From: Bacillus sp. 123MFChir2
GTDB taxonomy: Bacteria; Bacillota; Bacilli; Bacillales; Bacillaceae_G
Direction of reading: 5' to 3'
DNA: 64,000 nt
Assembly (NCBI RefSeq): GCF_000383235.1
Contig: NZ_KB910926.1
Coordinates: 1-64,000, forward strand
The number at the start of each line of letters is the position of its first letter. The stretch's first letter is position 1. The notes under the pieces are model-generated. The model saw only the letters and a list, made by a program, of their open reading frames with translations, did no database searches and was not told where the DNA came from. Shown piece by piece: positions 39,161 to 62,590 of this stretch. The position numbers and the translations under genes were made by a program.

Positions 39161-39241
39161 GAGGATATTCAACTGTCAATTTTAAAAAATGCAATGGTTC
39201 TGACCTTAATTATAGCAAGTGCCATTTTGCTAATTCGGTGA
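39161..39241 (+). pseudogene. possible truncated 3' end of a membrane protein gene
   Basis: An open frame ending at the TGA at 39239-39241 encodes KNAMVLTLIIASAILLIR, a single hydrophobic segment with a basic end. It has no convincing start, begins where the repeat at 39152 ends, and is followed by its own terminator-like hairpin, which suggests the tail of a deleted membrane protein gene. I do not recognise the family. Confidence 0.35.
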
Positions 39242-39248
39242 TTATTGA

Positions 39249-39296
39249 TAAAGGCTGCTTACAGCTTTTTTATGAGCTTAGCGGCCTTTTGTAACT
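39249..39296 (+). terminator. terminator before malK
   Basis: AAAGGCTGC ... GCGGCCTTTT imperfect hairpin; it fits as the terminator of the truncated upstream gene. Confidence 0.55.
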
Positions 39297-39348
39297 TTTT
39301 GGATAAGTCTTATACATACTATAATTTTGATAATACCTGGAGGAGATT

Positions 39349-40944
39349 ATGAAGAAGGGCAAACTTAGTTTACAAGCCATTATTATTATATTTGTTTGCA
39401 TTGTCGTCGTATTATCACTTGGAATAACTGATTTAATAATAAGCAAGAGAATTACTTCCAGTGTGGAAGAAGCAGAGAAAGAGAAGGCTCTCAATGTTGC
39501 AAAGATGGTAGCCCTTAGTCCGCAAGTGATTGAAGCCCTTGAAGGGAAAGCAAACCAGAAAAATGTCCAAGTTTTTAGTAATCAAATTAAAGAAAAGATT
39601 AATGTCAACTTCGTTGTTGTTATGGACATGAAAGGAATCCGTCAATCTCATCCAGACCCCGAATTGGTTGGAAAGCCCTTCATGGGAGAAGATGAAGGGC
39701 CAGTTCTTAAAGGAAAAGAGTATGTGTCCATTTCAAAGGGGACTCTCGGCCAATCCATGCGGGCATTTACTCCAATAAAAAATTCACAGGGAAAACAAGT
39801 GGGAGCGGTTGCTGTAGGAATTACTTTAGAGAGCGTTACAAAGGCGGTACAGAAAGGGCGAATGGCGATCGTTATAGGGACGTTAATCGGAATCCTAATA
39901 GGTGTAATCGGTGCAGTGTGCCTAGCAAGATATATCAAAAAAACTCTTTTAGGGCTCGAGCCGATTGTTATTGCTAAGCTGCTTGAAGAACGTAGTTCCA
40001 TGCTACAGTCTGTGCGTGAGGGAATCATAGCCATCGACCAAGTAGGGAATATCACACTTGTAAACAGGGCAGCCAGTAAGCTTTTTAAAAAGGCCGGACT
40101 TGGAGAGAATCCTATAGGGAAGAACATTGAAGATTATTTGCCAGAAACCCGGTTAAGTCGCATTATCAAATCGGGCGAGACAGAGCTCGACCAAGAACAG
40201 AACCTGCATGGGGTCACCATTTTAGTAAACAGGGTACCAGTGATTGTGCAAAATCAGCCAGTGGGAGCAATCGCAACATTCCGTGATAAAACCGAGGTTC
40301 AAGTTTTGGCTGAACAGCTTACAGGTGTACGCAATTATGCGGAAGCTCTTCGTGCTCAGACTCATGAATTCATGAATAAACTTCATGTCATTCTTGGTCT
40401 AGTTCATACTGAGCAATACGATACACTTGCTAGCTATGTGAGTGAAGTCGTTAACCACCGTGAAACGGAAGTGGGCTTTGTAACGAAACAAGTCCAAGAT
40501 CCGGTTCTTGCCGGGTTTTTGATTGGCAAGCTAAGCTTTGCAAGAGAATCAGGGGCCTTACTTTCATTTGATAGCGCAAATACACTTCCCAAGCCTGCCA
40601 ACTCGGAAATTACACATGATTTAATAACGATAATTGGAAATCTTGTCGATAATGCAATGGAGGCAATTGTAGACAGTCCAAACAAAAAAGTCGACCTTAT
40701 ACTAGATTACGCAGAGGATATTTTAACAATAGAGGTTAAAGACACAGGAGTGGGAATGACGAATTCATTCCAAAACAAAATATTGAATAAAGGTTTTTCA
40801 ACGAAAGGAAATCACCGTGGGTTTGGATTATACTTGTTGGCACAGGCAATTGAAAGACTGGAGGGGGACCTAATTATTTCGTCCAAGCCTGGAAAGGGAA
40901 CGGATTTTGCTGTATATATACCTTATAAAGCAGAGGATGTATGA
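39349..40944 (+). CDS. malK: sensor histidine kinase, CitA/DcuS family (malate-type, MalK/YufL)
   Basis: A 531-residue kinase with helix 1 (about 10-31), an extracellular PAS-like ligand domain with the di/tricarboxylate sensor pattern DMKGIRQSHPDPELVGKPF, helix 2 (about 170-192), a cytoplasmic PAS, a Spo0B-type phosphoacceptor region with THEFMNKLHVILGLVH, and HATPase (NLVDNAMEA, DTGVGM, GFGLYLL). The closest family I recall is B. subtilis MalK (YufL), which senses malate; citrate or other C4-acids cannot be excluded. It overlaps malR by ATGA. Codons are richer in C/G third bases than in the wal operon. Confidence 0.87.
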   Translation: MKKGKLSLQAIIIIFVCIVVVLSLGITDLIISKRITSSVEEAEKEKALNVAKMVALSPQVIEALEGKANQKNVQVFSNQIKEKINVNFVVVMDMKGIRQSHPDPELVGKPFMGEDEGPVLKGKEYVSISKGTLGQSMRAFTPIKNSQGKQVGAVAVGITLESVTKAVQKGRMAIVIGTLIGILIGVIGAVCLARYIKKTLLGLEPIVIAKLLEERSSMLQSVREGIIAIDQVGNITLVNRAASKLFKKAGLGENPIGKNIEDYLPETRLSRIIKSGETELDQEQNLHGVTILVNRVPVIVQNQPVGAIATFRDKTEVQVLAEQLTGVRNYAEALRAQTHEFMNKLHVILGLVHTEQYDTLASYVSEVVNHRETEVGFVTKQVQDPVLAGFLIGKLSFARESGALLSFDSANTLPKPANSEITHDLITIIGNLVDNAMEAIVDSPNKKVDLILDYAEDILTIEVKDTGVGMTNSFQNKILNKGFSTKGNHRGFGLYLLAQAIERLEGDLIISSKPGKGTDFAVYIPYKAEDV

Positions 40945-41654
40945 AAATGATTAATGTAATGATTGTTGAAGATGACCCGATGGTAGCAGAAATTAATAAG
41001 CAGTACCTTTCTAAGATTGCCGGGTTCCGTTTAGTTGCAATAGTCAATTCAGTTGCTGAAGCCATTCAACTTTTAGGGAAACATGATATTCAGCTCATTC
41101 TTCTGGATATTTTTATGCCTGGAAAACAGGGTCTGGAGCTGTTATCGTACCTTCGGAAAAATGATTTTGAAAGTGATGTCATCATTATTTCAGCGGCCTC
41201 AGATCTTGAACGAATTAAGAGGGCATTAAGGTATGGTGTTGTCGACTATTTAATTAAACCTTTTGAGTTTGATCGGTTTAATGCTGCGCTTGTTGCCTAC
41301 CTTGAGCAAACTCGGTTAATTGATAAACAGGATTCGGTAAGTCAGCAGGAGCTAGATTACTTACTTTTGCACAGAGAAGAAGCAGTAATCGCAGAGGAAC
41401 TCCCAAAGGGATTAACCAAGGATACTTTAAAGCAGATATGGGATGCGGTTCAAGAGTTGAAACAGGGGCCCTTTTCCACTGATGAAGTAGCTAATGTTAT
41501 AGGCATTTCAAAGGTTTCAGCAAGAAAGTACCTTAACTTTCTAAAGGACTTAGGAATACTTGAAGTCAAAGTCATCTATGGAACAATCGGACGGCCTGTA
41601 TATCAGCATGAATATAACCAATATAAGGAACATCTAATAAAAAACTTTTTGTAA
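40941..41654 (+). CDS. malR: response regulator, CitB/DcuR family (MalR/YufM)
   Basis: A 237-residue regulator with an N-terminal receiver (VEDDPMVAEINKQYL; phospho-acceptor in LLDIFMPGKQG; LIKPFEFDRF) and a C-terminal helix-turn-helix (STDEVANVIGISKVSARKYLNFL) as in DcuR/CitB/MalR. It is coupled to malK by an ATGA overlap. The likely targets are the neighbouring permease and malic enzyme genes. Confidence 0.87.
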   Translation: MKMINVMIVEDDPMVAEINKQYLSKIAGFRLVAIVNSVAEAIQLLGKHDIQLILLDIFMPGKQGLELLSYLRKNDFESDVIIISAASDLERIKRALRYGVVDYLIKPFEFDRFNAALVAYLEQTRLIDKQDSVSQQELDYLLLHREEAVIAEELPKGLTKDTLKQIWDAVQELKQGPFSTDEVANVIGISKVSARKYLNFLKDLGILEVKVIYGTIGRPVYQHEYNQYKEHLIKNFL

Positions 41655-41684
41655 GCAGTTTTTGAAACTGCTTACTTTTTTTAT
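41651..41684 (+). terminator. malR intrinsic terminator
   Basis: AAGCAGTTT / AAACTGCTT hairpin followed by a T-rich run. Confidence 0.85.
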
Positions 41685-41717
41685 TTACAAAAAGGATTAT
41701 TAAACTTTCATAAACTA

Positions 41718-41732
41718 CGAAAACGCTTTCTT
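41718..41732. promoter_or_regulatory. candidate cre (CcpA) site before the kdgT-like gene
   Basis: The reverse strand reads AAGAAAGCGTTTTCG, 13 of 15 matches to the catabolite-responsive element WTGWAARCGYWWWCW. It lies about 145 bases before the gene. Carbon catabolite repression of an organic-acid uptake gene would be expected. Confidence 0.5.
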
Positions 41733-41876
41733 TGTGGATATGATAGACATGTAACAAAACAAAGAGAGATTAAAACGTAGTACAAGGTGCAAGAAAATTG
41801 GAATCGATTTCTTAAATTACTGGGAAAATAACGGATTCCTTTCGAGATTATAAAAACTACTTTAGGAGGGTTAAAA

Positions 41877-42845
41877 GTGCAAATTCCAATTAAGAAAACG
41901 CTTGATAAAATCCCAGGTGGTATGATGGTTGTTCCACTTTTTTTAGGAGTATTAACGAATACATTTTTTCCGCAATTTTTAAAAATTGGAGGTTTTACAA
42001 CGGCATTATTCAGTAAAGAAGCATCATCTACCATTTTGGCATGTTTTATGTTTTTAATTGGTTCACAAATTAATTTCAAATTAGCACCAAAGGCAATAAA
42101 AAAAGGTGCAATATTATTAACAGGAAAATTTATAATCGGTGCCGGTATAGGTTTAACTGTAGCAATGATTTTTGGGCCTGCCGGAGTACTAGGATTATCA
42201 CCATTAGCCATCCTTGCGGCGTTACTAAATGCTAATGGTGGATTGTATGCATCTCTTGCTTCATCGTATGGTGACGAAACTGATGTAGGCGCATATGCTG
42301 TATTTTCTTTAAAAGATGGTCCGTTTTTCACATTAGTTGCATTAGGTGCATCCGGCCTTGCTACAATTCCTCTTCACACACTTGTAGGAGTATTAATTCC
42401 AATAGTAATAGGAATGATTTTAGGAAATATTGATTCTGATATGAGAAAGTTCCTTGGAAGCAGTAAATTATTATTAATTCCATTCTTCTCATTCCCATTA
42501 GGTGCAGGAATGAACCTTACAACTATTATAAAAGCGGGAGGTCCTGGCATATTACTAGGATTAGTAGCTGCATTCACTGGAATTGGGGCTTACGTACTTT
42601 TGAAGTTATTTAAAGAAAATCCTATCGTTGGTTTAGCAACAGGTTCAACTGCCGGAAATGCTGTAGCTACACCAGCTGTTGTTGCTGCAGCAGATCCAAC
42701 CTTAGCTGCAATAGCACCATCCGCCACTGCACAAGTTGCAGCAGCATGTGTAATATCTGCAGTAGTCTGTCCGATTATTGTTAGTTATGCATTTAAAATG
42801 TCCGAAAAGAAAAAAGCTAAAAAACCAATTGCAGGGGCAGCATGA
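41877..42845 (+). CDS. kdgT: 2-keto-3-deoxygluconate permease family transporter (KdgT)
   Basis: A 322-residue membrane protein with about ten hydrophobic segments and the KdgT family motifs KIPGGMMVVPLFLG, FMFLIGSQINFKLAPKAIKKG, LNANGGLYASLASSYGDE and STAGNAVATPAVVAAADP. The GTG at 41877 follows AGGAGGG. KdgT proteins carry 2-keto-3-deoxygluconate, but no KDG-catabolic gene lies nearby. It sits between a malate-type two-component system and a malic enzyme, so an organic-acid substrate is plausible; that is inference. Its low GC differs from malK and malS. Confidence 0.85.
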   Translation: MQIPIKKTLDKIPGGMMVVPLFLGVLTNTFFPQFLKIGGFTTALFSKEASSTILACFMFLIGSQINFKLAPKAIKKGAILLTGKFIIGAGIGLTVAMIFGPAGVLGLSPLAILAALLNANGGLYASLASSYGDETDVGAYAVFSLKDGPFFTLVALGASGLATIPLHTLVGVLIPIVIGMILGNIDSDMRKFLGSSKLLLIPFFSFPLGAGMNLTTIIKAGGPGILLGLVAAFTGIGAYVLLKLFKENPIVGLATGSTAGNAVATPAVVAAADPTLAAIAPSATAQVAAACVISAVVCPIIVSYAFKMSEKKKAKKPIAGAA

Positions 42846-42913
42846 CAATAAAGTAAAAATCTACTGTTATCCTATTCATCATGCTGCTGAAGCTTTTAAG
42901 CCAATTTGAAAAT

Positions 42914-42959
42914 GAAACAAAGAAAAAGCAGTCAGCGGTTTCACTGTCTACTTTGTTTA
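42914..42959 (+). terminator. terminator-like hairpin between kdgT and malS
   Basis: AAACAAAG (42915-42922) pairs with CTTTGTTT (42951-42958), with an inner CAGT/ACTG. No T-run follows, so it may be a weak terminator or an RNA structure. Confidence 0.4.
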
Positions 42960-43069
42960 GTTACAAAAAAGGTCATTAAGATAAAAAACTAGTGGGATAA
43001 GGATAAATTTATTAACATAGTTGAGGTATTGTCAGAATAGCTATTTTAAGATAGGAGGAAGGAAACACC

Positions 43070-44788
43070 ATGAATGTACCTGAGAATGTTATTATTACTA
43101 CAATAAAAGGAAAAGAAGTTCTCTCCAATCCTTTTTTGAATAAAGGAACAGCTTTTACGAAGGAGGAGAGGGAAGACCTTGGACTTGAAGGTCTGTTACC
43201 TCCACAAGTACTCACCCTTGATGAACAAGTTAGTAGGATCTATGAACAATATTCGATGCAGACGACGAATCTGTTCAAAAACGGGTTGCTTTATGATTTA
43301 TATAACCGCAATGTTGTCTTGTTTTATCGTCTTTTGAAAGAACACCTGGCAGAAATGCTCCCTATCATCTACACTCCTACTGTCGGTGATGCAATTCAGT
43401 CATACTCCCATAGCTATCGTCGTCCAGGTGGCTTATATCTTTCCATTGATGATCTTGAGGGCATTGAAAAGGCATTTTATAATTTAGGAAAGCCCAAAAA
43501 TGGTATTGATTTAATCGTCGTTACCGACTCTGAAAGCATTCTTGGTATTGGGGACCAAGGGATAGGCGGTATTAATATTGCGATTGGTAAACTTGCCGTG
43601 TACACAGCTGCAGCTGGGATTGATCCGAGCCGTGTTCTGCCAGTTGTGTTGGATGTTGGCACGAACAATCAGACTTTGATTGCAGACCCTATGTATATCG
43701 GCAACAAATTCGCACGTGTCCGCGGTGAGCGTTATGATCAATTCATTGATTTATTCATTCAGACTGCAAGAAAGTTCTTCCCAGAGGTTCTTCTTCACTG
43801 GGAGGACCTTGGCAACGTCAATGCGCGAAAAATCTTGGACAAATGCGGTGACAAAATCCTTACCTTCAATGATGACATCCAGGGAACAGGTGCTGTTACT
43901 CTTGCTGCTATTATGTCTGCTTTGAAAGTAACAGGAGAATCCCTAAAGGATCAGCGCATTGTTGTCTTTGGACCAGGGGCTGCCGGCATTGGTAACGCAG
44001 ACCAAATGACAGATGCCATGGTTTTAGAAGGGTTGACTAGAGAAGAAGCCTATGATCGTTTTTGGGCTGTTGACTATCGGGGTCTACTAACAGATGAAAC
44101 ACCAGATGTTCTGAACTTTCAGAAGCCTTATACAAGACAGGTGGATGAAGTTAAGGACTGGGGTAAGAATGAGGAAGGGATCATTTCATTAATGGAAGTA
44201 GTTCAAAGGGTGAAGCCAACCATCCTAATTGGTACTTCCGGACAAGCCGGTGCCTTCACTGAGGATATTATAAAAGAGATGGCCAAGCACGTTGAACGTC
44301 CAATCATTATGCCAATGTCCAACCCGACTGCACTAGCTGAAGCAGTGCCAGAAAACCTAATCAAATGGACAGATGGAAAGGCGTTAATTGCGACTGGCAG
44401 CCCATTTGCCGATGTAAAATACAAAGGTGTTACCTATGAAATCGGGCAGTCAAACAACGCATTTGTGTTCCCAGGGCTTGGACTTGGAGCAATTGTTGCA
44501 AAAGCTGAAATCATCTCAAAAGGAATGTTCGCAGCAGCAGCAAATGCAGTTGCCAAAATGTCAGATATCAGCACATCAGGCGCATCCCTGCTGCCATCCA
44601 TTGAAAAGCTTCATGAAGTCTCAAAATATGTGGCCATTGAAGTAGCTCATGCTGCAATACACGAAGGAATTGCAAGAGTAGATATTCAAGATGTTGAGAA
44701 TGCTATTGAAGATGCTATGTGGAAGCCTGAGTATAAAGAAATTAAGAGTGTAGGTATTTGGACAAACATTAATTCCTATGCATATTAA
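43070..44788 (+). CDS. malS: NAD-dependent malic enzyme
   Basis: Oxidative decarboxylation of malate to pyruvate. The 572-residue protein belongs to the large malic enzyme group (SfcA/MalS): [38 protein letters not shown], the metal-binding EDLGNVNA and [10 protein letters not shown], and the nucleotide-binding [20 protein letters not shown] precedes the ATG. Length is typical of B. subtilis MalS. With malKR and the permease it forms an uptake-and-use cassette for malate or a related acid. Codon choice is richer in C/G than in kdgT. Confidence 0.93.
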
Positions 44789-44794
44789 ATAGTT

Positions 44795-44864
44795 AAATAA
44801 AATGCCTGTACTCCTGGTAATTGATCGAACTTTCGGTATTCCGGGCAGTGACAGGCATTTTTTG
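44795..44864 (+). terminator. malS intrinsic terminator
   Basis: AAAATGCCTGT at one end pairs with ACAGGCATTTTTT at the other across a long imperfect hairpin; the T-run follows the right arm. Confidence 0.8.
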
Positions 44865-44897
44865 TAATCAACTAGATTAAATGGATCAAAATTATGA

Positions 44898-44978: not shown

Positions 44979-45072
44979 CATCCCTCAAGTATAAGGATAC
45001 GCATGGTTTATTCACTTTTCCTCCTTAACTGTTTATTGCCTATACTCTAGTCAACACGAAGAAGAACAAGAA

Positions 45073-45276
45073 TATATAAATACAAATTGAAAAAATGACA
45101 TAAAAACCAATTTTTTAGGGGAGGGGACGAGAGCAACTGGCCATGCATAGAGGCGGTCGGTCCCTTTTTCTGCCATGTGCAAAGTTTAAAACAAAGATAG
45201 ACAACAAGTAGCGACCATGTTTTGTTCTGCATGGCAGCGACTTAGATGTTAAAAGGTCAACTTGTATTTATATATT
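45073..45276 (+). repeat. MITE-like repeat, copy A (~200 bp)
   Basis: Ends with inverted tips (TATATAAATACAAATTGA and CTTGTATTTATATA). The inside includes AGCAACTGGCCATGCATAGA, TTCTGCCATGTGCAAAGTTT and CATGTTTTGTTCTGCATGGC. It is non-coding. The copy at 48317-48517 has the same order in opposite orientation. The rest of 44979-45486 is AT-rich and holds only the leader of the next gene. Confidence 0.75.
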
Positions 45277-45486
45277 CAACGTTATATCTATATTCTATTT
45301 ATACAAGTGATATGAAAATCTCTGAATGGTTAATGACATTGAAGAAGTTATTCATAAGAATTATAATCGAAAAAATGGATATTATTACTTTTTATAGTTA
45401 TATATGTTAAAATTATAGGGGTGTTTGGTAAACTGAATTTTCGAAATATACGAAAGTAGAGTTTTTTAAAATTAAGGAGTGGAAAA

Positions 45487-46482
45487 ATGGCGCGCAATGT
45501 ACCCTTATTGACGATTGTTGTTCCCTGCTACAATGAAGAAGCTACACTAGAGGAAACAACAAAAGAACTAACGAGAGTTATGGATGATTTAGTTGTTAAT
45601 AATAAAATAAGTGATGAAAGTATTATTTTCTATGTAGACGATGGAAGCTCTGATAACACTTGGGGCATAATTGAAGAAAAGACAGTAACCAATCCGTATG
45701 TCCAAGGGTTAAAATTAAGTCGGAATTTTGGACATCAAGGAGCATTAATTGCTGGTTTAGAATCAGCAAGGGATTTTTCAGATTGTGTTGTCTCAATAGA
45801 TGCAGACCTTCAAGATGATGTTAACGTTATCTATCAGTTTATCGATAAATATCAAGAAGGTTATGAGATTGTATATGGAGTTCGAGATAAGAGAGACACG
45901 GATACCAAATTTAAAAGAAACACTGCTTTATGGTTTTACGGCCTCATGGGAAAAATGGGCGTTAAGTTAGTACCCAATCATGCAGATTATCGTTTAATGA
46001 GCAAAAGAGCGTTGGACGAATTTATAAAATATCAAGAAGAAAACTTATTTATTCGCGGAATCGTACCTTTATTAGGCTTTAAATCTACTAATGTTTATTA
46101 TGACCGCAAAGAAAGATTTGCTGGCGAATCAAAGTATCCATTAAAGAAAATGATTGCTTTCGCTTTTGATGGACTTACTTCATTTAGCGTTGCACCAATA
46201 AGGTTCGTTTCATATTTAGGATTTTTGATGGTGCTTATCGGGATAGGAATTGCTCTTTATGCATTATTTGCAAAAGTTTTTTCATATACGACTAGTGGCT
46301 GGACCTCATTGATGCTATCCATTTGGATTGTTGGAGGAGTACAGTTGTTGGCAATTGGAATTATTGGTGAATATATAGGGAAAATTTTCAAAGAAACAAA
46401 AGGGCGACCAAGATATACAATTGAAAAAAATAGTGTTCTTGAGGAACAAAAAGAATACGTATCAGACCTAATTAAAAAGTAA
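45487..46482 (+). CDS. polyprenyl-phosphate glycosyltransferase, GT2 (GtrB/DPM1-like)
   Basis: Transfers a sugar from a nucleotide donor to undecaprenyl phosphate. The 331-residue protein has a GT2 domain with VVPCYNEEATLEE, VDDGSSDNTW, SRNFGHQGALIAGL and the metal-binding IDADLQDD, followed by two C-terminal membrane helices (about 235-260 and 270-295). This matches the GtrB/YkoT/CsbB group. AAGGAGTGG precedes the ATG. The next gene is a GT-C-like enzyme that could use the lipid-linked sugar; the two lie between inverted repeats A and B. Confidence 0.92.
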   Translation: MARNVPLLTIVVPCYNEEATLEETTKELTRVMDDLVVNNKISDESIIFYVDDGSSDNTWGIIEEKTVTNPYVQGLKLSRNFGHQGALIAGLESARDFSDCVVSIDADLQDDVNVIYQFIDKYQEGYEIVYGVRDKRDTDTKFKRNTALWFYGLMGKMGVKLVPNHADYRLMSKRALDEFIKYQEENLFIRGIVPLLGFKSTNVYYDRKERFAGESKYPLKKMIAFAFDGLTSFSVAPIRFVSYLGFLMVLIGIGIALYALFAKVFSYTTSGWTSLMLSIWIVGGVQLLAIGIIGEYIGKIFKETKGRPRYTIEKNSVLEEQKEYVSDLIKK

Positions 46483-46711
46483 ATAAGAAATAAGAAGATT
46501 CATCCTTACAAAGGTATTTTGGCGTGGGTGTTCAAAAAAACTATTAGTCTCTCATTGACTGTATAGCTAAGAAGAATTCTATAGAAAAGTATTCTTAGGA
46601 TGGACAAAACTTAGAAGTAGTTACTAACAATTATTTTAGGATAGGTATTAAGTTTTAAAGGGGCATAAGCTGGTTATAAAATGTTCCGAATGAGAGGAAG
46701 AATTAAAAGAA

Positions 46712-48274
46712 ATGAAAAAATCAGTTAGATTTAATGATTTCAGAATAAATAAATTATCATTTGAAAAACTAAATATCTTTTTATTTTCTTATTCCTTTTT
46801 TATTATGTTATTTTTTACACAGACATCCCCATTCTTTACGTTAACCGAGTGGGTAGATTCTAATGCCTTTTTTACAGTTGGGAAAGGTATGGCTAATGGA
46901 TTAGTCCCCTACCAAGATATTTTTGAACAAAAGGGTCCTTTGCTATATGGTTTGCACGCATTAGCTTATTCGTTTTCTCATTCCACTTTCGTTGGAGTTT
47001 ACATATTGGAAAGTCTTGCAATGTTTGTTAATATTGTTTTTGCATTCAAGATTTCTCGCCTTTATTTGAATTGGATGCCTTCGGCGCTTATATCTATTTT
47101 TTTCCCAGTATTAGTATTAAATCAAAATGCATTTCGTTTTGGCGATAGTGCTGAAGAATTTTCGATTCCTTTCATAATGATTCTTCTTTATATGATATTT
47201 AAATATTTTAAGTATGGATCTGGCGCCCTTTTTAAACGGAGAATTTATCTTCTAAATGGGATTATGATTGCCTGCGTGTTTTGGATTAAATTTACTCTTG
47301 TTGGAGCTTGGATCGGATTCTACCTTGCGATTTTAATTATCTGTATAGGTGAAAGAAGATGGAAGGACTTAATGAGTGCAATTGTCTACACGTTTGCGGG
47401 GCTAGTTCTTGCAAGTGTTCCATGGCTTATCTATTTTGGTATGAATCATGCAATTCAAGATTTGATAGATGTGTATTTAAAATTTAACCTCGTTAGTTAT
47501 TCATCACAAGTGGGTACAGTTGAAAAACTTATCAATTGCGCATTTATTTTTGGCGGTGCATTTAATGCTAACTTCGAAAATAAAGTGTTGATTCTTGTTG
47601 GTTTAATTGATTTTATGTTTACATGGAAGTATTTTAAAGATAGAAGTCAAAAATGGTTGCTTTTAAGTACTATTATTTTCTTAATAGTAGGGGTATATAT
47701 TGGAGGAAGAGAAATTCCATACTACTTTCTTATTATAACTCCTTTAGGGCTATTTGGATTGATAGCAATCGCTCATTATATTCAAAATGCTAACATAAAG
47801 TCACAGATTACTCTTGGTAAAAGTAAATGGTTTGCTCTATCCATGATGGCGATGGCAACAATTTTCTTTTGCTTCGGCTATAATTCTAACATGAAGGCTT
47901 CAAAGTTCTATCAGAAGGGGCCTCTTGCGCAGGAAACATTCGCTAAAATTATGCATCAAGAACCGAATCCAACGTTATTAAATTACAATTCTTTAGATGG
48001 TGGATTTTATTTTGCTGCAGATATTGTACCGAATATCCGCTATTTTGAAAGACAAAATATTGACTATGAGATATATCCTGAAAATATGGATGAGCAACAT
48101 CGTTATATAAAAGAGAAAAAAATTAAATTCGTTGTAGTAAAAGTTGAGCCACAAACGAATCCAAGTGAGCTTACCATTCCTTACCTTCACAAAAATTATC
48201 GTTTAGTTGCTGAGCAAAATCAATTTGTAGAAGGAGTGGAGTACAAATTTTTACTCTATAAGCAGAAAGATTAA
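46712..48274 (+). CDS. GT-C-type membrane glycosyltransferase-like protein
   Basis: A 520-residue protein with about eleven membrane segments and a short outside C-terminal domain (about 400-520). Near the N-terminus it has WVDSNAFFTVGKGMANGLVPYQDIFEQKGPLLY; an acidic residue in the first outside loop followed by YQDIFEQKGP is a GT39/PMT-like arrangement seen in many Firmicute wall glycosylation enzymes. It probably moves a sugar from a lipid carrier (made by the upstream GT2) onto an outside acceptor. The acceptor is unknown. The ribosome binding site AGAGGAAG is 14 bases from the ATG, unusually far. Confidence 0.7.
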   Translation: MKKSVRFNDFRINKLSFEKLNIFLFSYSFFIMLFFTQTSPFFTLTEWVDSNAFFTVGKGMANGLVPYQDIFEQKGPLLYGLHALAYSFSHSTFVGVYILESLAMFVNIVFAFKISRLYLNWMPSALISIFFPVLVLNQNAFRFGDSAEEFSIPFIMILLYMIFKYFKYGSGALFKRRIYLLNGIMIACVFWIKFTLVGAWIGFYLAILIICIGERRWKDLMSAIVYTFAGLVLASVPWLIYFGMNHAIQDLIDVYLKFNLVSYSSQVGTVEKLINCAFIFGGAFNANFENKVLILVGLIDFMFTWKYFKDRSQKWLLLSTIIFLIVGVYIGGREIPYYFLIITPLGLFGLIAIAHYIQNANIKSQITLGKSKWFALSMMAMATIFFCFGYNSNMKASKFYQKGPLAQETFAKIMHQEPNPTLLNYNSLDGGFYFAADIVPNIRYFERQNIDYEIYPENMDEQHRYIKEKKIKFVVVKVEPQTNPSELTIPYLHKNYRLVAEQNQFVEGVEYKFLLYKQKD

Positions 48275-48316
48275 GGATTTGAGAAGGGTCTCTGCATTGA
48301 ATAAATAGGTTGACCA

Positions 48317-48517
48317 TATAAATACAAGTTGATTTTTCAACATATAAGTCGGTGCTATGCAGAACAAAACATGGCCGCTACTTGCTTTCTACCTTTGTTT
48401 TAAACTTTGCACGTGGCAGGAAAAGGCCCTGGCTGCTTCTATGCATGGCCAGTTATCCAGGTCTTCTTCCTTAAAAAAGTGGTTTTTATGTCATTTTTTC
48501 AATTTGTATTTATATAT
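48317..48517 (-). repeat. MITE-like repeat, copy B, inverted relative to A
   Basis: The reverse complement follows copy A for about 200 bp, including CATGGCCAGTTATCC/CTGGCC, AGTTTAAAACAAAG and CATGTTTTGTTCTGCATAGC. By eye identity is about 80% or more. Tips: TATAAATACAAGTTGA and TTCAATTTGTATTTATATA. Short open frames across it are not genes. Confidence 0.75.
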
Positions 48518-48689
48518 AATAATCAGTTTATTTGTTATGTGGATTATGAAACTGAAAAGGGAGTAATTGATAATTCTCGTTTACTCCCTTTTATAAAGTT
48601 TTGTCAAAGGCCTGGCTAGAGCGGATGCATTTTGATGTGTTGCCTACAATGACGCGCACCAGATCAAGTGCCGAAACCTAAATGATGTA

Positions 48690-48725: not shown

Positions 48726-48791
48726 TTTTTATATTATAATGTTTTCCCCATAAAATAATGGTGTAATGACTACATGAGGGATGGACATAAA

Positions 48792-49040
48792 ATGGGCGAT
48801 ATATTATTGATGATAATTGAACGTGTTGGTTTATTTATTATTTTATTATCTTTATTTCCTTATATTCGGATATTAATTTGGTTGCTGCATAATATTTTGA
48901 TTCCACCATTTGTGCTGCAATTATTAGTAGAAAATGCCCTTTGTCATGCATTTCCTAAAAAACAGCTTCTATGCCAAATTGGAATTCATGTTTATGCTAA
49001 GCAAAAAGTAACCTGCTACTTTCTTCCTCTTTTTGTTTGA
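48792..49040 (+). pseudogene. internally deleted lytS-like sensor kinase remnant
   Basis: The frame starts MGDILLMIIERVGLFIILLS, like the first membrane helix of LytS-type sensors, and then jumps to IPPFVLQLLVENALCHAFPK, like the N-box of the LytS HATPase domain (IPPFxLQPLVENAxxHAF). Some 400 residues between are missing. The end runs into repeat copy C, where the coding similarity stops. GAGGG precedes the start. LytS/LytR control murein hydrolase regulators in the B. cereus group; no lytR or lrgAB is present here. Confidence 0.65.
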
Positions 49041-49104
49041 ATATTGCATGTGGCAGAAATAGGCCCTGACCGCTTCTACTCATGGCCAGATGCCCTTGAC
49101 CATC
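49013..49104 (-). repeat. MITE-like repeat, copy C, partial
   Basis: The plus strand CTGCTACTTTCTTCC, GCATGTGGCAGAAATAGGCC and CATGGCCAGATGCCC aligns with the middle of copy B (48374-48472). Both tips are missing. It cuts into the 3' end of the lytS remnant. Confidence 0.6.
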
Positions 49105-49125
49105 TAAAAAGAAAAGGGTTTTATA

Positions 49126-49157
49126 AAAAGTTTTAACATTTTATAATAAAACTTTTT
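49126..49157. repeat. short palindrome before the AI-2E gene
   Basis: AAAAAGTTTT and AAAACTTTTT form a 10-base perfect inverted repeat around a 13-base AT-rich centre. It could be a terminator or the edge of a degraded element. Confidence 0.35.
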
Positions 49158-51462: not shown

Positions 51463-52896
51463 TCATACAGTTTTTTTTCTTATATATTGATGAATTACAT
51501 AGATTCCATAGCTTTGAATAATGAAGAAGCCAGGAATGATAAAATATCGATACCTTGTTTGTATCTCTATTAAAAAATGAACAGATATATATCCGATGAT
51601 AAGTAAGAGAAGTAATGTATATTGAAGGTTTTTCTGTTTTGTGAAAAGAAGGGATAATAATCCAATCACACCAAATAACATAGTTGCCATATACATATAT
51701 TTTTCATATTTCATGGATGTATTAATTAATTCTTTTTTATTTAACTGATTTAAGCTCCAATAACCAGCTGAGTCAATATCTCCCCACATAGAGGAAAATT
51801 TATCTCCAAAGAGCGTGAATAGCTTTTCTTTATCTGTAATTCGTTCTTTAATGAGTTTCATTTCTACTACTTTTCGTTCTTCACCTATTTCTAGACCCAA
51901 GATTTGTTCAGCATCTGATTCTGAATATGATCCTGCTGTTTCATGGTTAAGCCCTATGACAAATTTCCAAAGAGGATCACGATTAGATAAAGGATATTTT
52001 GTAACTCCTGTAGCAATGAACAGAGAGCTTACAATATAATGGACAGCGTAAAAGGTAACAAGAATACCAATAAGTTTCTTTGTTGTAGTGAACATTGTTT
52101 GTTTATCTTTTCCAAGAAATCTATGAAGGAATAGGTAAATGATAACCGCTAATAAAATGAAACTACCTGGAGGGCGTATTATATCACCAAGTGCTAGTGT
52201 AATTCCGACAAAAATCCAAGTATATTTACTGTGGAACTCTTTTGTTGTTAGTAAATAGAATCCTAAATAAAATAAAAATGTTGCAAGGTGTTCATTGGTT
52301 AAGACAGAACTCATCATAATGCTTGAAATATAAAAAGCATATAGTAATCCAGCTGTGCGTCCAGTCCACTCATTGAAAATTTTGCTTGTAATGCCATATA
52401 CACATAGTGTAGTTCCTGTACAATAAAGGACATTTAAAAATTTTAAAATGAATATATGGTTACCAAATAATTTGATGACGAAAGCTTGATACATCGTAAA
52501 TCCCAGTTGATACACCCATGTTGTGTAGTATGGAGAGCTTGAAAAACTATAGTTGCCGTGAGCAGCTTGTACAGCACTCTCATACATTAATGCAAAGTCA
52601 GATTCAACCGGTGTTGGGATTTTTAGAATCCAAATAAATCGAGTGGCAAACGCACAAAGTGTTAATAAAATAATAAATGTAGTTTTTGAAAAATATGTAT
52701 TACAGAGATAAGTTAGTAGTATAAGCAAAATCATGGTGATAATTATAATGGGAGCACTAATAAGTGTTCGAACGAATAGAGTCTCCTTAACAGTTAAATA
52801 AGAATTCCAAATAGAAAAAGCAAAGATAAGCAAGCACAAAATTGTGAGGCACTTTGCTAATAATGAACTGAAACGATTCCATTGTATAGTCAACAT
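51463..52896 (-). CDS. GT39/ArnT-like membrane glycosyltransferase
   Basis: A 477-residue membrane protein with about eleven to twelve helices. The first outside loop has IPTPVESDFALMYESA, with the acidic residue typical of GT-C enzymes, then SSPYYTTWVYQLGFTMYQ. Later IRPPGSFILLAVI and a long outside loop (about 300-390) follow. These are features of the ArnT/PMT group that transfers sugars from polyprenyl phosphate. I choose the ATG at 52896 (GGGGTG upstream) over that at 52920. It is a single-gene unit; the acceptor is unknown. Confidence 0.8.
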   Translation of the reverse strand: MLTIQWNRFSSLLAKCLTILCLLIFAFSIWNSYLTVKETLFVRTLISAPIIIITMILLILLTYLCNTYFSKTTFIILLTLCAFATRFIWILKIPTPVESDFALMYESAVQAAHGNYSFSSSPYYTTWVYQLGFTMYQAFVIKLFGNHIFILKFLNVLYCTGTTLCVYGITSKIFNEWTGRTAGLLYAFYISSIMMSSVLTNEHLATFLFYLGFYLLTTKEFHSKYTWIFVGITLALGDIIRPPGSFILLAVIIYLFLHRFLGKDKQTMFTTTKKLIGILVTFYAVHYIVSSLFIATGVTKYPLSNRDPLWKFVIGLNHETAGSYSESDAEQILGLEIGEERKVVEMKLIKERITDKEKLFTLFGDKFSSMWGDIDSAGYWSLNQLNKKELINTSMKYEKYMYMATMLFGVIGLLSLLFTKQKNLQYTLLLLLIIGYISVHFLIEIQTRYRYFIIPGFFIIQSYGIYVIHQYIRKKTV

Positions 52897-52951
52897 AATT
52901 GGATACACCCCTTGATGCATATAATAATTTATATAGGAATAAAGCGCACTA

Positions 52952-52986
52952 TTTATCGCGCCTAAGAACTCGAAGTTTTACTTTAT
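52952..52986 (+). repeat. bcr1-type internally deleted remnant
   Basis: TTTATCGCGCC at the left and CGAAGTTTTACTTTAT at the right, 35 bp in total. It is the same minimal left-end-plus-right-end form as at 17469-17498. Confidence 0.5.
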
Positions 52987-53040
52987 AAGAATACAATTTT
53001 TGCGGGCAAGGTAAAATGTTTTTCAGGAAGAAAAAATAAT

Positions 53041-53077
53041 AAAATATGCCCCTTGTTTAGACAAGAGGCATATTTTT
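53041..53077. terminator. bidirectional terminator after the ABC-F gene
   Basis: AAAATATGCC and GGCATATTTTT with an inner CTTGT/ACAAG pairing; A/T runs on both sides. Confidence 0.8.
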
Positions 53078-53121
53078 ATCCCGTTATTTGTGTACAGTAA
53101 GGTTTCAATTGGTTCAACTAA

Positions 53122-54681
53122 TTATTGATGAGCTGCTTTCTCTGCCCATTCTTCTACGTTCCATACTTTTGTAATCCAACCTTCATAAAAATCTGGTTCG
53201 TGACAAACAAGAACGATTGTACCTTTATATGCTTTCATAGCACGCTGTAATTCTTCTTTTGCTGTTACATCGAGATGGTTTGTTGGCTCGTCAAATAATA
53301 GCCAGTTACTTTCTGTTGCCATTAATTTACATAAGCGAACTTTTGCTTGTTCACCACCACTTAACTGGCTCAGTGGACGAGAAATATGTTCATTTTTCAA
53401 GCCGCATTTCGCAAGCATTGCACGTACTTGATGTTGATCTAAGTGCGGGAACGCATTCCATATATCATCAATTGGCGTAATATTTTCAGCCTTAACTTCT
53501 TGTTCAAAATAAGCAGGTTCTAAGAAATCACCAAGACTAATTTTCCCGCCTAGCGGTTTAATTTTTCCAAGAATCGTTTTAAGTAATGTTGATTTTCCGA
53601 CCCCGTTACATCCAACAATGGCAATTTTTTCACCGCGTTCAATTGTCATTGTTAACTTCGGTAATAGGGGATGTGTGTAACCGATTTCTACATCTTCTCC
53701 TTCAAAAACAAAACGACTGCTTGCACGGCATTCTTTAAAAGAAAACTCCGGTTTTATAGCAGTTTCTGGACGATCAATACGTTCCATGCGATTGAGTTGT
53801 TTTTGACGGCTTTTTGCGCGTCCAGTTGTTGAGTAACGCGCTTTATTTCGCGCAATAAAATCTTCTTGCTGTTTAATGAATTCTTGTTGTTTTTGATATG
53901 CTTGTAAATGTTGATTTTTATTAATTTCTGCTAGTTCTAAGAACTTTTCATATGTTGCTGTATAACGTGACATTTTTGAAAATTCAAGGTGGAAAATAAC
54001 ATTTACACATTTGTTCATAAACTCTGTATCATGGGAAATTAAAAGGAATGCATGAGGGTATTCCTTTAAATAGCTTGTTAACCATTGAATATGTTCAACG
54101 TCTAAATAGTTAGTTGGCTCATCGAGTAATAGTACTTCAGGTTGTTCAAGTAATAGCTTTGCAAGCAATACTTTCGTACGTTGTCCACCACTTAACGCCG
54201 AAACATCACGATCTAGGCCAATTGCATCAATTCCAAGACCGCGTGCCGCTTCTTCAATTTTAATATCTAATAAATAGAAACCGCCTGCTTCTAGTGCATC
54301 TTGCACTTCTGCCATTTTTTCAAGTAGTTCTTCCAATTCTTCTGGTGACGCTGTTGCCATGTTTTCAGCAATCGTATTTAATTCTTTTTCTTTTTCAAAT
54401 AAAGGCAAGAACGCATCTGTTAATACATCACGAATCGTTCGTCCAGGTGTTAATATTGTATGCTGATCTAAATATCCATAGTGGGTGCCGGGTGTCCATT
54501 CTACACGTCCCTGATCATGAATCAGTTGCCCTGTAATAATATTCATAAATGTTGATTTACCAACTCCGTTTGCACCGACTAATCCAACATGTTCTCCTGC
54601 TAATAAACGCATTGATACATCTTTAAATAGTGTACGATCACCAAAAGTATGACCTAGGTTTTCAACTGTTAATAAGCTCAT
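53122..54681 (-). CDS. ABC-F family ribosome-associated ATPase (YfmM-like)
   Basis: ABC-F proteins act on ribosomes (translation factors or antibiotic protection) and have no membrane domain. The 519-residue protein has two ABC domains: Walker A GANGVGKST (about 36-44) and GCNGVGKST (about 352-360), signatures LSGGQRTK and LSGGEQAK, Walker B VLLLDEPTNYLD and LLFDEPTNHLD. They are joined by a charged linker with KNKARYSTTGRAKSRQKQ. By memory the sequence is closest to B. subtilis YfmM. GGAGGACACT precedes the ATG. Confidence 0.92.
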   Translation of the reverse strand: MSLLTVENLGHTFGDRTLFKDVSMRLLAGEHVGLVGANGVGKSTFMNIITGQLIHDQGRVEWTPGTHYGYLDQHTILTPGRTIRDVLTDAFLPLFEKEKELNTIAENMATASPEELEELLEKMAEVQDALEAGGFYLLDIKIEEAARGLGIDAIGLDRDVSALSGGQRTKVLLAKLLLEQPEVLLLDEPTNYLDVEHIQWLTSYLKEYPHAFLLISHDTEFMNKCVNVIFHLEFSKMSRYTATYEKFLELAEINKNQHLQAYQKQQEFIKQQEDFIARNKARYSTTGRAKSRQKQLNRMERIDRPETAIKPEFSFKECRASSRFVFEGEDVEIGYTHPLLPKLTMTIERGEKIAIVGCNGVGKSTLLKTILGKIKPLGGKISLGDFLEPAYFEQEVKAENITPIDDIWNAFPHLDQHQVRAMLAKCGLKNEHISRPLSQLSGGEQAKVRLCKLMATESNWLLFDEPTNHLDVTAKEELQRAMKAYKGTIVLVCHEPDFYEGWITKVWNVEEWAEKAAHQ

Positions 54682-54711
54682 AGTGTCCTCCGCTCTGTTT
54701 CAAATCTATAA

Positions 54712-54868
54712 GTTCATTTTAATTTTTCAATATAAAAGTCGCTGCTACGCAGCATAAAAAATGACCTCATTCGCTTTCTTCCTTTGTTTTCATCCTTATG
54801 TTCAGATGCTCTTGCAAAAAGAAAGAGATTTTAGGTCGGTTTTTCAATTTATAATAGTATCTTGAATC
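54712..54868 (-). repeat. MITE-like repeat, copy D, degenerate
   Basis: TTTTTCAATATAAAAGTCGC, TGCTACGCAGCATAAAAAATG and CTTTCTTCCTTTGTTTTCATCC follow the order of copy B, and AGGTCGGTTTTTCAATTTATA gives the right end. It is about 155 bp, shorter than A and B. The rest of 54869-55215 is AT-rich and must hold the ABC-F promoter (minus); nothing else was recognised. Confidence 0.55.
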
Positions 54869-55217
54869 ATGATACTAAATTCTTAAATATAATGCTATCT
54901 TTTATCTTTGAATGATTGTGTATTTCTTATGGGAAATAATTGTAATCTTATGGTATATTTTGTTACAATAATGTTATTTTTATTACAAAAATGTAATGTT
55001 CGTGTAAGCTAAATCGATAGTGGAGTTCTTTTATATATTATAAAATTTAGTCGGTAAGGTGGTACAAACACAGTAAAGATGAATAAACATAATGATAAAA
55101 ACTACGAGAATGTGTGCTGTATACCAATATGATAAATGGTCATTAGTGTATTCGTCTTATCTTGTTTAAAGATTATAAAAAACCCCTTGTTTTTATGAAA
55201 AGACCCCTTGTAAAAAG

Positions 55218-55252
55218 AGCAACTGTTCCTGTCTGGGACAGTTGCTCTTTTT
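55218..55252. terminator. strong terminator in the 54.7-55.4 kb gap
   Basis: GAGCAACTGT / ACAGTTGCTC perfect stem with an 11-base loop and a seven-T run on the plus side, with an A-rich run on the other. Confidence 0.8.
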
Positions 55253-55306
55253 TTCTCCTGCTGATTTGAGATCAGTTGATGAAAGTTGTAATTGATTGGA
55301 CTATTT

Positions 55307-55357
55307 ACCAGCAGTAAGCCCCTACCTCAATATTTGGGGTGGGGGCTTACTGCTGGT
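55307..55357. other. long perfect hairpin downstream of the GT2 gene
   Basis: ACCAGCAGTAAGCCCC (55307-55322) and GGGGCTTACTGCTGGT (55342-55357) form a 16-base perfect stem, with further ACC/GGT pairing inside. There is no T-run. It ends 6 bases from the GT2 stop and may stop or stabilise that mRNA. Confidence 0.65.
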
Positions 55358-55363
55358 ATGAAC

Positions 55364-56185
55364 TTATTTAAAGTATCCTCTAACAATTCCTTTTAAGCGC
55401 TTTGTATGAAATTTTCGTTTATCATTAGAAATGTTTTGCATTGCACGGAATAAAGCAGCGGCAATGGCGCGTAAAAAGTAAGGGAATCCATAATGTAAGC
55501 GAATGACTCTTCCGAAACCGCCGGCATAGGAAATAGCTCTTTTTAATGATTGCTCATTAATAATCTCTTCTTTTACTGGATGATATACGAAAAGATCTTT
55601 CTTAAATAAACCTGTATATCCATTTTTCATACCACGAAGTACAAAGTCAGTTTCTTCACCAGCTCCGTAAATTGTTCCCGCTCCAACTCCTAAGTCTTCA
55701 TCAAAAGTGCCTACATCTTGTACAAATTGTTTCGTGAAGAAGAGGGCAAAGGAAGGACCCATGAATCCATATTTATTATTTAAAATAATATCTGTATTAG
55801 GAGCGTGTATTAAAGATCCTGTCCCTTCTACATTTGTTGTATTGGTAGAAATAAAATGAATATTTTTATTTTGTTTAAACGTTTCTTGAATGTTTTCCAA
55901 CACATTTGTTTCATAAATACAGTCGTCATCTGGAAAAGCGATAACATCACCATCAGCTACTTTTAAACCTGTGTTTCGTGCACGGGAGAGTCCTTTGATT
56001 GGTGTGTATATATAATTGATTGGGAATTTTTCTTTATAGTCATTAAATAAATCAACGATTGGTGTATCGTTTTGGTCGACTACAATGAGTTCAAAGCCTT
56101 TATATGTTTGTTTTTCTAACGATTTTAGTAAATCTATAATATCATCACGTCTGCCGCAAGTCGCCATGATTAAAGAGAATTTCAA
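55364..56185 (-). CDS. family 2 glycosyltransferase
   Basis: A 273-residue cytoplasmic GT-A enzyme: SLIMATCGRRDDIIDLL, LIVVDQNDTP, and IAFPDDDCIYE with the DxD-type motif (about 90-98), then GAGEETDFVLRG as the catalytic-base region. No membrane helix. The donor and acceptor are unknown. The start is a TTG at 56185 with AAAGGAGC upstream. It lies 66 bp after the flippase gene on the same strand, so both probably serve one surface polysaccharide. Confidence 0.88.
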   Translation of the reverse strand: MKFSLIMATCGRRDDIIDLLKSLEKQTYKGFELIVVDQNDTPIVDLFNDYKEKFPINYIYTPIKGLSRARNTGLKVADGDVIAFPDDDCIYETNVLENIQETFKQNKNIHFISTNTTNVEGTGSLIHAPNTDIILNNKYGFMGPSFALFFTKQFVQDVGTFDEDLGVGAGTIYGAGEETDFVLRGMKNGYTGLFKKDLFVYHPVKEEIINEQSLKRAISYAGGFGRVIRLHYGFPYFLRAIAAALFRAMQNISNDKRKFHTKRLKGIVRGYFK

Positions 56186-56251
56186 TCGGAACAGCTCCTT
56201 TAAAGAAGTTTCATTCGCCTAAACATGCAAGATGGTGTTTTGTTACTTACA

Positions 56252-57706
56252 TCATTTTTTCTTCAGTTTTCCTTTGATTTTATCTAAAAACGTAAACAAT
56301 ATCTCATCTTTTGTTATTAATAAAATTAATGCATATACACATCCACACGTGATAATGATAACCAATACAGAAAGGATTTTTCCTGGTATTGTTATATGAA
56401 TGAGATATGATAACGGTACAAATGTAAGTGAATAGAAGAGATATTTTAGTTTCGACATATCGAATAATGTGTAATTTACTTTTAGTTTCTTTTTTACATA
56501 TATATATTCCAGTGTAATTAGCAAGCAGTATGAAATCGTAGTTGTGAAAATCGCTGTTGTCGGTGTGAATACATGAAAGACGATCAGCGAGATATTTAAA
56601 ATCAGGTTTAGAAAACCACCAATGAATAAAAAACGTACTAAAATGTTTTCTTTCTTTTTTACGTAAATAATTTGATTCGATAAAATAGATTCGATACCGA
56701 GTGCAATCATGTATAGTGCAAAAGCAACTAATGTATCACCAGCATTAGCAAATTCATTTCCTCCATAAATAATAACAGCCCCATGAGCGATAAGCATTAA
56801 GCCAATAGCTGCTGGGAATAATGTAATAAAGTACACTTTTGAGATTTTATTTAATAGTGATTCATACTCTTTTTCATCCGCAGTTCCTGATAAATAAGAG
56901 AGCCGTGGAACGGTAACTTGGATTACACTTAACATCAGTGTATTAATAATCGTCATAATTTGAAAAGCCATGACATAGTAAGAAAGTTCGGGTTTCCCAA
57001 CATACTTACCTAATAATAGTCGGTCTAATTGTGTATAGAGAATAGTTGCATTTGAAAAGATAACAACTAAAAATAATGGTTTTAAATGCCGAACAATGGT
57101 TATGTTGGAAAAATCAAACTTAACTTGACGTTTTACATATATAAAACTGATAAAGTGGTTTAAAAATGTTGATAAAACTAATAAACTTGCAAATTGTCTG
57201 TAATCATTTGCCCCATGAACGAAAATAAATAAAAGGACAACATAAATGAGACGAACAATAACTGTTTTTTTGGCAATGAAATCATAATTTTCATGTGCTT
57301 CATTGTACCATTCTACATAAAATAAACTCGAAATAAAGTTGAATCCAAAAATAAGGAGGACAGGAAATACATCTTTATTTCCATAGCCAATGTAACTAAA
57401 AAGTAAAAATGCAATTAAAGCAAGAATACTAGTTGTAAAGTTAATAACGTATAAACTTGTAAACAATTGTGAAGTTTTTTTCTTATCGTTTTTCACTAAG
57501 CTAATTTCACGTAAGCCATATTGATACACACCAAATGTAGCAAAAACAAAGAAATAATTAAAAATTGTTTCGCTAAAGTTAACTGTTCCCATTGAATGCG
57601 AACCAAGCATTCGATATGCATATGGGCCTACGAGAAGCGGAAGGATAATATTAAAGGTGTTGAGCAATAATTTATAGAAAATATTTGAAACAAGTGATTT
57701 TTGCAT
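56252..57706 (-). CDS. Wzx-like polysaccharide flippase (MOP superfamily)
   Basis: A 484-residue membrane protein with about fourteen helices, the Wzx/RfbX pattern: LLLNTFNIILPLLVGPYAYRMLG near the N-terminus, GVYQYGLREISL in the first inside loop, and TQLDRLLLGKYVG in the middle. It should move an undecaprenyl-linked repeat unit across the membrane. The ATG at 57706 follows AAAGGTG. With the GT2 gene after it and the O-antigen-ligase-like, GT4 and TagA genes at 61.1-64 kb it could make up a wall polysaccharide pathway. Confidence 0.88.
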   Translation of the reverse strand: MQKSLVSNIFYKLLLNTFNIILPLLVGPYAYRMLGSHSMGTVNFSETIFNYFFVFATFGVYQYGLREISLVKNDKKKTSQLFTSLYVINFTTSILALIAFLLFSYIGYGNKDVFPVLLIFGFNFISSLFYVEWYNEAHENYDFIAKKTVIVRLIYVVLLFIFVHGANDYRQFASLLVLSTFLNHFISFIYVKRQVKFDFSNITIVRHLKPLFLVVIFSNATILYTQLDRLLLGKYVGKPELSYYVMAFQIMTIINTLMLSVIQVTVPRLSYLSGTADEKEYESLLNKISKVYFITLFPAAIGLMLIAHGAVIIYGGNEFANAGDTLVAFALYMIALGIESILSNQIIYVKKKENILVRFLFIGGFLNLILNISLIVFHVFTPTTAIFTTTISYCLLITLEYIYVKKKLKVNYTLFDMSKLKYLFYSLTFVPLSYLIHITIPGKILSVLVIIITCGCVYALILLITKDEILFTFLDKIKGKLKKK

Positions 57707-57900
57707 AATTTCACCTTTCACTGATAGTTCTTCAAATAAAATGCTTTTGTGAGTTTTATTGAAAGTGATTTAATTATAAGTAATTACGGATATAAGTTTA
57801 CCGCAGATAAACTTTGTAAAGCAACAATAGATTCTTTTCTTAATTGCAGTCAAAGTAGCACACAATGTATGAAAATAGCCTTAGTATTTCTTCATGAATA

Positions 57901-57930
57901 TAAAAAACCTGGCGAATACATTCGCCAAGT
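57901..57930 (-). terminator. thioesterase gene terminator
   Basis: Hairpin with GGCGAAT / ATTCGCC arms followed on the minus strand by TTTTTTA (57907-57901). Confidence 0.8.
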
Positions 57931-57943
57931 AGAGGGTGTAGAA

Positions 57944-58456
57944 TTATACATTCCACGGTTTTTGAATAGTTAGTACTTCTGCCATTTCTTTACTTTTCAA
58001 TCGGTTCATTTTGCGTTTTTCTGCACGTTCTCCGCCTGTGTTATATAACCAGAGCTCTTCCTCTGTTTCAGCGATCACACCTGGTACAGAGGCTGGTTTT
58101 CCATCTTTTAATGCGACGAAAGTGATGAAGCAAGTAGCGGCAATGCGGCGTTGCCCGCCTAATAAATCTTCTGCAACAATTTTTACGAATACTTCCATAG
58201 AAGATCTTCCTGTATAACAAACGAATGCTTCATAGCAAACAGAATCGGTTTGATGAATGGGTGTTAAGAAATCAACAGAATCGATAGAAGCTGTTACACA
58301 GTGCTCACGGCTATGGCGCGCAGCAGCGATAGATGCGATGCTATCAATTTCTGCTAATAATTTTCCGCCAAATAATGTTTGATGGTTGTTTAAGTCATTG
58401 GGAAAAACACGTGTTGTTTTTATCGCTCTTGACTCTCTCATAAATTTCTTTTCCAT
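57944..58456 (-). CDS. acyl-CoA thioesterase (hotdog fold, YkhA/YciA type)
   Basis: Hydrolyses acyl-CoA thioesters. The 170-residue protein has one hotdog domain: VFPNDLNNHQTLFGGKLLAEID with the catalytic Asn/Asp region, AARHSREHCVTASIDSVDF, and YTGRSSMEVFVKI. This fits the hexameric BFIT/YkhA group. The ATG at 58456 follows AGGAG; the upstream in-frame ATG at 58495 has no ribosome binding site. A single-gene unit. Confidence 0.92.
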   Translation of the reverse strand: MEKKFMRESRAIKTTRVFPNDLNNHQTLFGGKLLAEIDSIASIAAARHSREHCVTASIDSVDFLTPIHQTDSVCYEAFVCYTGRSSMEVFVKIVAEDLLGGQRRIAATCFITFVALKDGKPASVPGVIAETEEELWLYNTGGERAEKRKMNRLKSKEMAEVLTIQKPWNV

Positions 58457-58736
58457 ATTATCTACTCCTGTTTTGTTTGTTCTCATGATATTCATCAGAA
58501 CTTAATTTATTTCGTCCATCATTCATTATAAATAGTGGATGAAAGTTTCTCTGTATATAGATTGTAGTGTAAAAGAGATTTCGCTTACATTGCAAGGGGA
58601 ATATATGACGTTACTAACTTTATCATAGAAATAGGGTACCGTGTTACTTCGGTTTCTATCCATTGTGTTAATAAAATTTCCAATTGAAAGTGACATGAAT
58701 GTGATACAAGGAAATACTATTTTTTAAAAAGTAAAA
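58457..58736. other. intergenic region between the thioesterase and HemAT genes
   Basis: About 280 AT-rich bases carrying the thioesterase promoter (minus strand). I saw no repeat, RNA gene or coding segment in it. Confidence 0.4.
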
Positions 58737-58785
58737 CGCCTAAGAGTGTGGATGTGTTTCTTCCTCGCTCTTAGGCACCTTGTTT
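58737..58785 (-). terminator. HemAT gene terminator
   Basis: GCCTAAGAG (58738-58746) / CTCTTAGGC (58768-58776) stem, followed on the minus strand by GTTTTACTTTTT. Confidence 0.8.
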
Positions 58786-60089: not shown

Positions 60090-60234
60090 AATGTTCCCCC
60101 TGTATATATGTCTTTCTCTCTCTCCTTGTAAAAAAATGTTAAAACGTTTCCAACATTGCCATCTTGTTTATTATATCTATTCTTTTATATTTTCTCTATA
60201 TTGTTATATGGAATTAAGGGAATTTATGCGCTAT

Positions 60235-60272: not shown

Positions 60273-60277
60273 ATAGA

Positions 60278-62505: not shown

Positions 62506-62514
62506 TGGAAGAAT

Positions 62515-62547: not shown

Positions 62548-62590
62548 CTATAGTAAAAAATGAGAAAATATATTTAATGGAGGAAAAAAG

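Follow-up and report, generated by a model that had tools for sequence, protein, structure and literature searches.

Inverted MITE copies around a glycosyltransferase gene pair most likely bracket it by coincidence

Introduction

Mobile insertion cassettes consist of passenger genes enclosed by transposable ends, and they lack a transposase gene. Bacterial MITEs of the TA-ended type can be compared with the Correia and RUP elements and with IS630/Tc1-mariner targets. According to the review PMC10969869, DNA flanked by MITEs may be mobilised, and Correia elements are capable of inversion, so that a cassette formed by two MITE copies and the genes between them is possible in principle. Among Bacillus relatives, short dispersed repeats are represented by the bcr repeats of the B. 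cereus group, of which bcr1 reaches up to 130 copies per genome and is described in PMC6542083 as confined to that group; the same paper mentions a TTTAT motif for these repeats and the B. cereus mobile insertion cassette MIC231. Adjoining GT2 and GT-C-like genes are found in multi-component transmembrane glycosylation systems, for which PMC8035078 gives CsbB-GtcA-YfhO and YkcC-YkcB.

The locus described here lies in a stretch of 64 kb, the whole of the DNA that was analysed and hereafter called the window. An initial annotation had proposed that a pair of glycosyltransferase genes and the two inverted repeats that enclose it, A and B, could form a cassette able to move or to invert. The repeat resembles the TA-ended bacterial MITEs in its length of about 200 bp, its terminal inverted repeats and its dispersed copies, and differs from them in that no parent transposase was found in the genomes and stretches searched and in that the TA duplication is a presumed one. 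With the bcr repeats it shares, in a comparison by description only, a short and dispersed character and the presence of TTTAT in its ends; in contrast to MIC231, the A-B unit gave no sign of moving as a unit. The gene pair has the adjoining arrangement known from the transmembrane glycosylation systems, and GtrA genes occur near it in two homologous loci (L003 and L005), but no GtrA gene is present between A and B and the GT2 protein scores under the curated NCBIfam cut-offs. A literature search covering titles and the starts of abstracts returned no published description of this repeat family.

Results

Copies A and B

A repeat search of the window returned a sole inverted pair of at least 60 nt, with arms of 209 nt each at 45072-45280 and 48309-48517 that are 86% complementary and separated by a gap of 3028 nt; the inverted repeats of about 200 bp reported by the initial annotation are thus present where it had placed them. 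Copy A (about 200 bp, 45073-45277, plus strand) is located 5' of the GT2 gene, and copy B (48309-48517, minus strand), inverted relative to A, is located 3' of the GT-C gene. The GT2 and GT-C-like genes are the only ORFs of at least 80 aa between the two copies, which bears out the earlier statement that exactly these genes are enclosed. Aligned with each other, A and B are identical at 179 of 209 positions, with 38 nt as the longest identical run; the first 38 nt of their outer ends are identical and the remainder has diverged. As they differ at 30 of the 209 positions, the two copies do not stem from a recent duplication. Copy A carries TATATAAATACAA at both termini, and B carries the same sequence with one base changed at its inner end. 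TA stands outside both outer ends of the A-B unit and is also part of the end sequence of single copies. No ORF of at least 80 aa was found within A or B, and an Rfam scan at gathering scores returned nothing at either copy. Terminal inverted repeats, the lack of such an ORF and the many dispersed copies agree with the MITE-like character first noted, and we class the repeat as a non-coding, high-copy MITE.

Further copies in the window

The window carries five copies in all, A and B included. Searches with A and B by blastn, and also by nhmmer, detected three diverged copies in addition: copy C, with unrecognisable ends, at about 48975-49150 (minus strand, best blastn E 2e-12); copy D, which is shorter, at about 54705-54859 (minus strand, best blastn E 1e-14); and copy E, a short copy with an internal deletion and both ends retained, at about 17329-17442 (plus strand, best blastn E 4e-8). 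Copy C starts about 460 bp past B and has the same orientation as B. Of 200,000 simulations, each scattering five copies randomly over 64 kb, 40% contained one or more pairs of inverted neighbours no more than 3.3 kb apart. Judged by this post hoc simulation, which assumes random placement, an arrangement such as the A-B bracket lies within what chance can produce.

Neighbouring copies were also compared in genome G576, where 130 of the 131 profile matches yielded 70 neighbouring pairs. Among the 14 pairs that lie 1-5 kb apart five are inverted, and all five pairs less than 1 kb apart are direct. Copies in this genome often stand head to tail (L161, 10968-11748; L168, 3717-4080; L165, 19447-19844), an arrangement that could be caused by insertion beside the TA-rich ends.

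Copy C overlaps the second half of an 88-aa ORF at 48774-49040. This ORF has no Pfam match, its first half presumably resembles a LytS-type membrane N-terminus, and it is perhaps a gene remnant.

The repeat family in other genomes

Alignment of 28 copies from G576 with A and B revealed a conserved part that starts with TATATAAAT and ends with TTATATA, with no clear conservation outside it; the ends of the family are sequences like TATATAAATGCAACT. The termini are the best-conserved part of the G576 copies. Of 17 near-full copies picked from 77 matches in this genome, 15 have TA on either side, one miss being a parsing failure. This is the pattern expected from a TA-targeting transposase, the target duplication itself being putative. 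The intergenic stretch of G555 that lies opposite copy E is too diverged to act as an empty site.

A profile built from copies A-E and one copy of G163 (R2) gave 131 matches in G576, 29 in G259, 10 in G320 and one in G573. Four of the 19 genomes of G555's family were positive with this profile, and 15 gave no match. Another profile (R1), with 11 candidates scored per genome, reported five of 193 Neobacillus-family genomes. G067 was accepted with four copies that have ends, and G163 by its interior only, which matches at 81 bits without recognisable ends; the matches of G107, G078 and G161 were discarded, no ends being present. The terminal motif occurs 31 times in G067 at up to 2 mismatches, against 9 occurrences of a reversed-pattern control.

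DNA searches of 397 sampled genomes of the order returned six weak matches. One of them (L120) is a short element of MITE type, another (L122) has one MITE-type end, and the other four look unrelated. These searches are insensitive: they missed G259 and G320, both matched by R2, and their silence is therefore weak evidence for absence. After a 27-bp match in G035 comes an array of unrelated repeats in place of the rest of the element. The repeat had no match in phage and plasmid records. Among viral contigs, 17 have one exact terminal-repeat match each, none with a partner end nearby; the five inspected all fall in one conserved, gene-like stretch, and these matches were regarded as coincidence.

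With respect to a transposase, a search for DDE_3 (PF13358) in G067 and G163 found none, and 20 stretches of G576 with unpaired ends contained no clear long element. Two ends in G067 that lie 1.4 kb apart enclose a dehydrogenase-like ORF and no transposase.

The gene pair and its transcription

The first gene (45487-46482, plus strand) codes for a GtrB-like GT2 glycosyltransferase of the polyprenyl-phosphate sugar transferase type (PF00535, E 2.7e-23). Its profile matched the structures of sll0501, a protein of the GtrB type, at E 1e-72 over residues 7-313, comprising a GT-A-fold and a membrane part, and the protein matches NCBIfam PgfS below cut-off. The second gene (46712-48274, plus strand) codes for a GT-C-like multi-spanning membrane protein of 520 aa to which Pfam gives no direct match; among eight homologues of the GT-C protein, two have a match to PMT_2, with a best E of 5.5e-7. 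A search of solved structures with the GT-C profile gave chance-level matches only and no GT-C structure, and the structure model of the protein is poor (mean pLDDT 54). Judging from the two families, the pair fits the function that the initial annotation had put forward, the transfer of a lipid-linked sugar to an external polymer: the GT2 protein would attach a sugar to a lipid carrier, from which the GT-C protein would hand it on to an extracellular polymer. Elsewhere in the window, a Polysacc_synt (Wzx-like) gene is found at 56252-57721, within a stretch not far from the gene pair (51463-63721) that holds more surface-sugar genes: those for a PMT_2 protein, a GT2, the Wzx-like protein, an O-antigen-ligase-like protein and a group 1 glycosyltransferase.

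Beyond B, a strong hairpin at 48545-48606 (plus strand, -21.1 kcal/mol, z -4.6) is likely the terminator of the operon; it is absent from the listing of a consensus terminator scan. A comparable hairpin follows the GT-C gene within about 120 bases in L001, L042 and L004. Copy B sits between the stop codon of the GT-C gene (48274) and this hairpin, and on the simplest reading it landed in the 3' untranslated stretch of the operon, in which case A-B would not be a complete transcription unit. At the other side, a promoter-like site is found at 45339-45367, between A and the GT2 gene; chance alone would yield such sites.

Homologous loci

Nine GT-C loci were compared, eight with a GT-C relative and L042 of G047. 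A GT2 gene stands beside the GT-C gene in five of them (L003, L004, L008, L042 and, in reversed order, L005) and was not found beside it in L001, L002, L006 and L007. Profile R2 detected no copy in any of the nine, the positive controls L131 and L132 both being matched; the same unit of genes plus repeats is thus absent from these loci, although the lack of a repeat weighs little for L042, which has only 603 bases before its GT2 gene, and for L006 (7 kb in total) and L007, both distant relatives on short stretches. Neighbour genes differ across the seven loci for which ORFs were listed. Both the presence and the location of the gene pair differ among the relatives examined, in line with the variability that the initial annotation had expected.

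The GT-C gene shares 83.7% DNA identity with that of N. massiliamazoniensis (L001), against 70-77% in 15 pairs among six relatives, some of the pairs including the GT2. As this value exceeds those of all 15 pairs, the gene has seemingly passed between lineages. The gene pair would seem to be horizontally mobile, and nothing links this mobility to A and B. In L001 a different repeat, 96 bp long and direct (9758-9853 and 11731-11826, 92% identical, 1973 bp apart), stands on either side of the lone GT-C gene and may be another sign of mobility, by some other route. In N. cucumis (L004, G004:C11) the gene pair is on the gyrAB contig at a distance of about 100 kb, and hence origin-proximal there too. 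The GT-C protein had no match in phage records. Matches were present in 47 plasmid records, none over 80% of the gene pair, and the ten listed among them cover the GT2 sequence only.

The neighbouring block and the host lineage

Outside the repeat pair, A is adjoined by a dctS-dctR-kdgT-mae block of Neobacillus-like DNA (39165-44885, plus strand). The limits of the block were taken from the longest of six homologous stretches, and it is 84-87% identical to genomes of the genus Neobacillus. In a comparison with the ten Neobacillus genomes that gave the best mae matches, mae of the window is 85-88% identical to theirs, against 83-94% among those ten, and gyrAB of the window is 72-74% identical, against 79-87% among the ten. 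Since the window falls within the range of these genomes for mae but outside it for gyrAB, the block would have come from the Neobacillus side. It was likely acquired horizontally, just after rlmH, and we infer that the species of the window is no Neobacillus.

G555, the best gyrB match (79%) among the 397 sampled genomes of the order, runs collinear with the window as far as about 38.8 kb, a point shortly after rlmH. Beyond the collinear part, its contig C9 contains other genes, and neither the dctSR-kdgT-mae block nor the glycosyltransferase pair was found there.

Discussion

We favour, at a probability of roughly 0.8, the reading that A and B are two independent MITE insertions which came to lie around a two-gene operon by chance. 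The five copies in the window, the 131, 29, 10 and 1 matches in relatives and the 40% of random placements that contain such a pair count for chance insertions, as do the lack of the repeat in nine homologous loci and the position of B upstream of the hairpin. The identical outer ends of 38 nt count against them, since a unit whose outer ends keep it mobile would look like this; in the G576 copies, too, however, conservation is highest at the ends. Chance insertion would involve a MITE of about 200 bp with terminal inverted repeats, moved in trans by a transposase which, given the TA at the ends, may be of the TA-targeting type, and the operon would move between lineages by a route other than A and B.

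The initial proposal of a movable or invertible cassette delimited by A and B fares poorly against a dispersed, high-copy family, a difference of 14% between the two copies, a copy B that precedes the likely operon terminator and nine homologous loci without the repeat. A composite MITE or mobile insertion cassette, in which a transposase acting in trans would use the outer ends of A and B to move the gene pair as one unit, would account for the inverted copies with their identical 38-nt outer ends and for the differing surroundings of the genes among the relatives examined. It is nevertheless very unlikely, in view of the nine loci, of flanking repeats that are 14% different rather than nearly identical, of a likely terminator that stays outside the unit and of copy C, which has the orientation of B and would be equally usable. 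The broader idea that inverted non-autonomous repeats of Bacillales can capture and move whole surface-glycosylation operons without a transposase, with A-GT2-GTC-B as one such unit, has a correspondingly slim chance of being right.

MITEs may instead have served as joining points, recombination between copies having placed the glycosyltransferase pair and perhaps the dctSR-kdgT-mae block. Copy A does lie between two seemingly acquired pieces, and G555 is collinear only to about 38.8 kb, after which C9 carries neither of them; but the block stops at 44885, almost 190 bp short of A, and starts at 39165 with no copy near, and five copies in 64 kb make such closeness unsurprising, so that the chance of this account appears slimmer still. 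The least probable in our view is an invertible segment, in which the gene pair would be turned round by recombination between the two copies. Inverted arms of 209 nt and the inversion of Correia elements reported in PMC10969869 speak for it; however, the longest identical run between the arms is 38 nt only, a Pfam scan of 17 window proteins, out of about 50 longer ORFs, revealed no site-specific recombinase, and the promoter-like site between A and the GT2 gene means that a flip need not sever the genes from a promoter.

Conclusions

The bracket formed by A and B is most likely a coincidence in a genome rich in MITE copies, and the locus illustrates how closely spaced members of a MITE family can give the appearance of a gene cassette. 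The repeat family, with 131 profile matches in one genome, provides material for studies of its transposase and of effects on neighbouring genes, and the surface-sugar gene pair apparently passes between Bacillales lineages.
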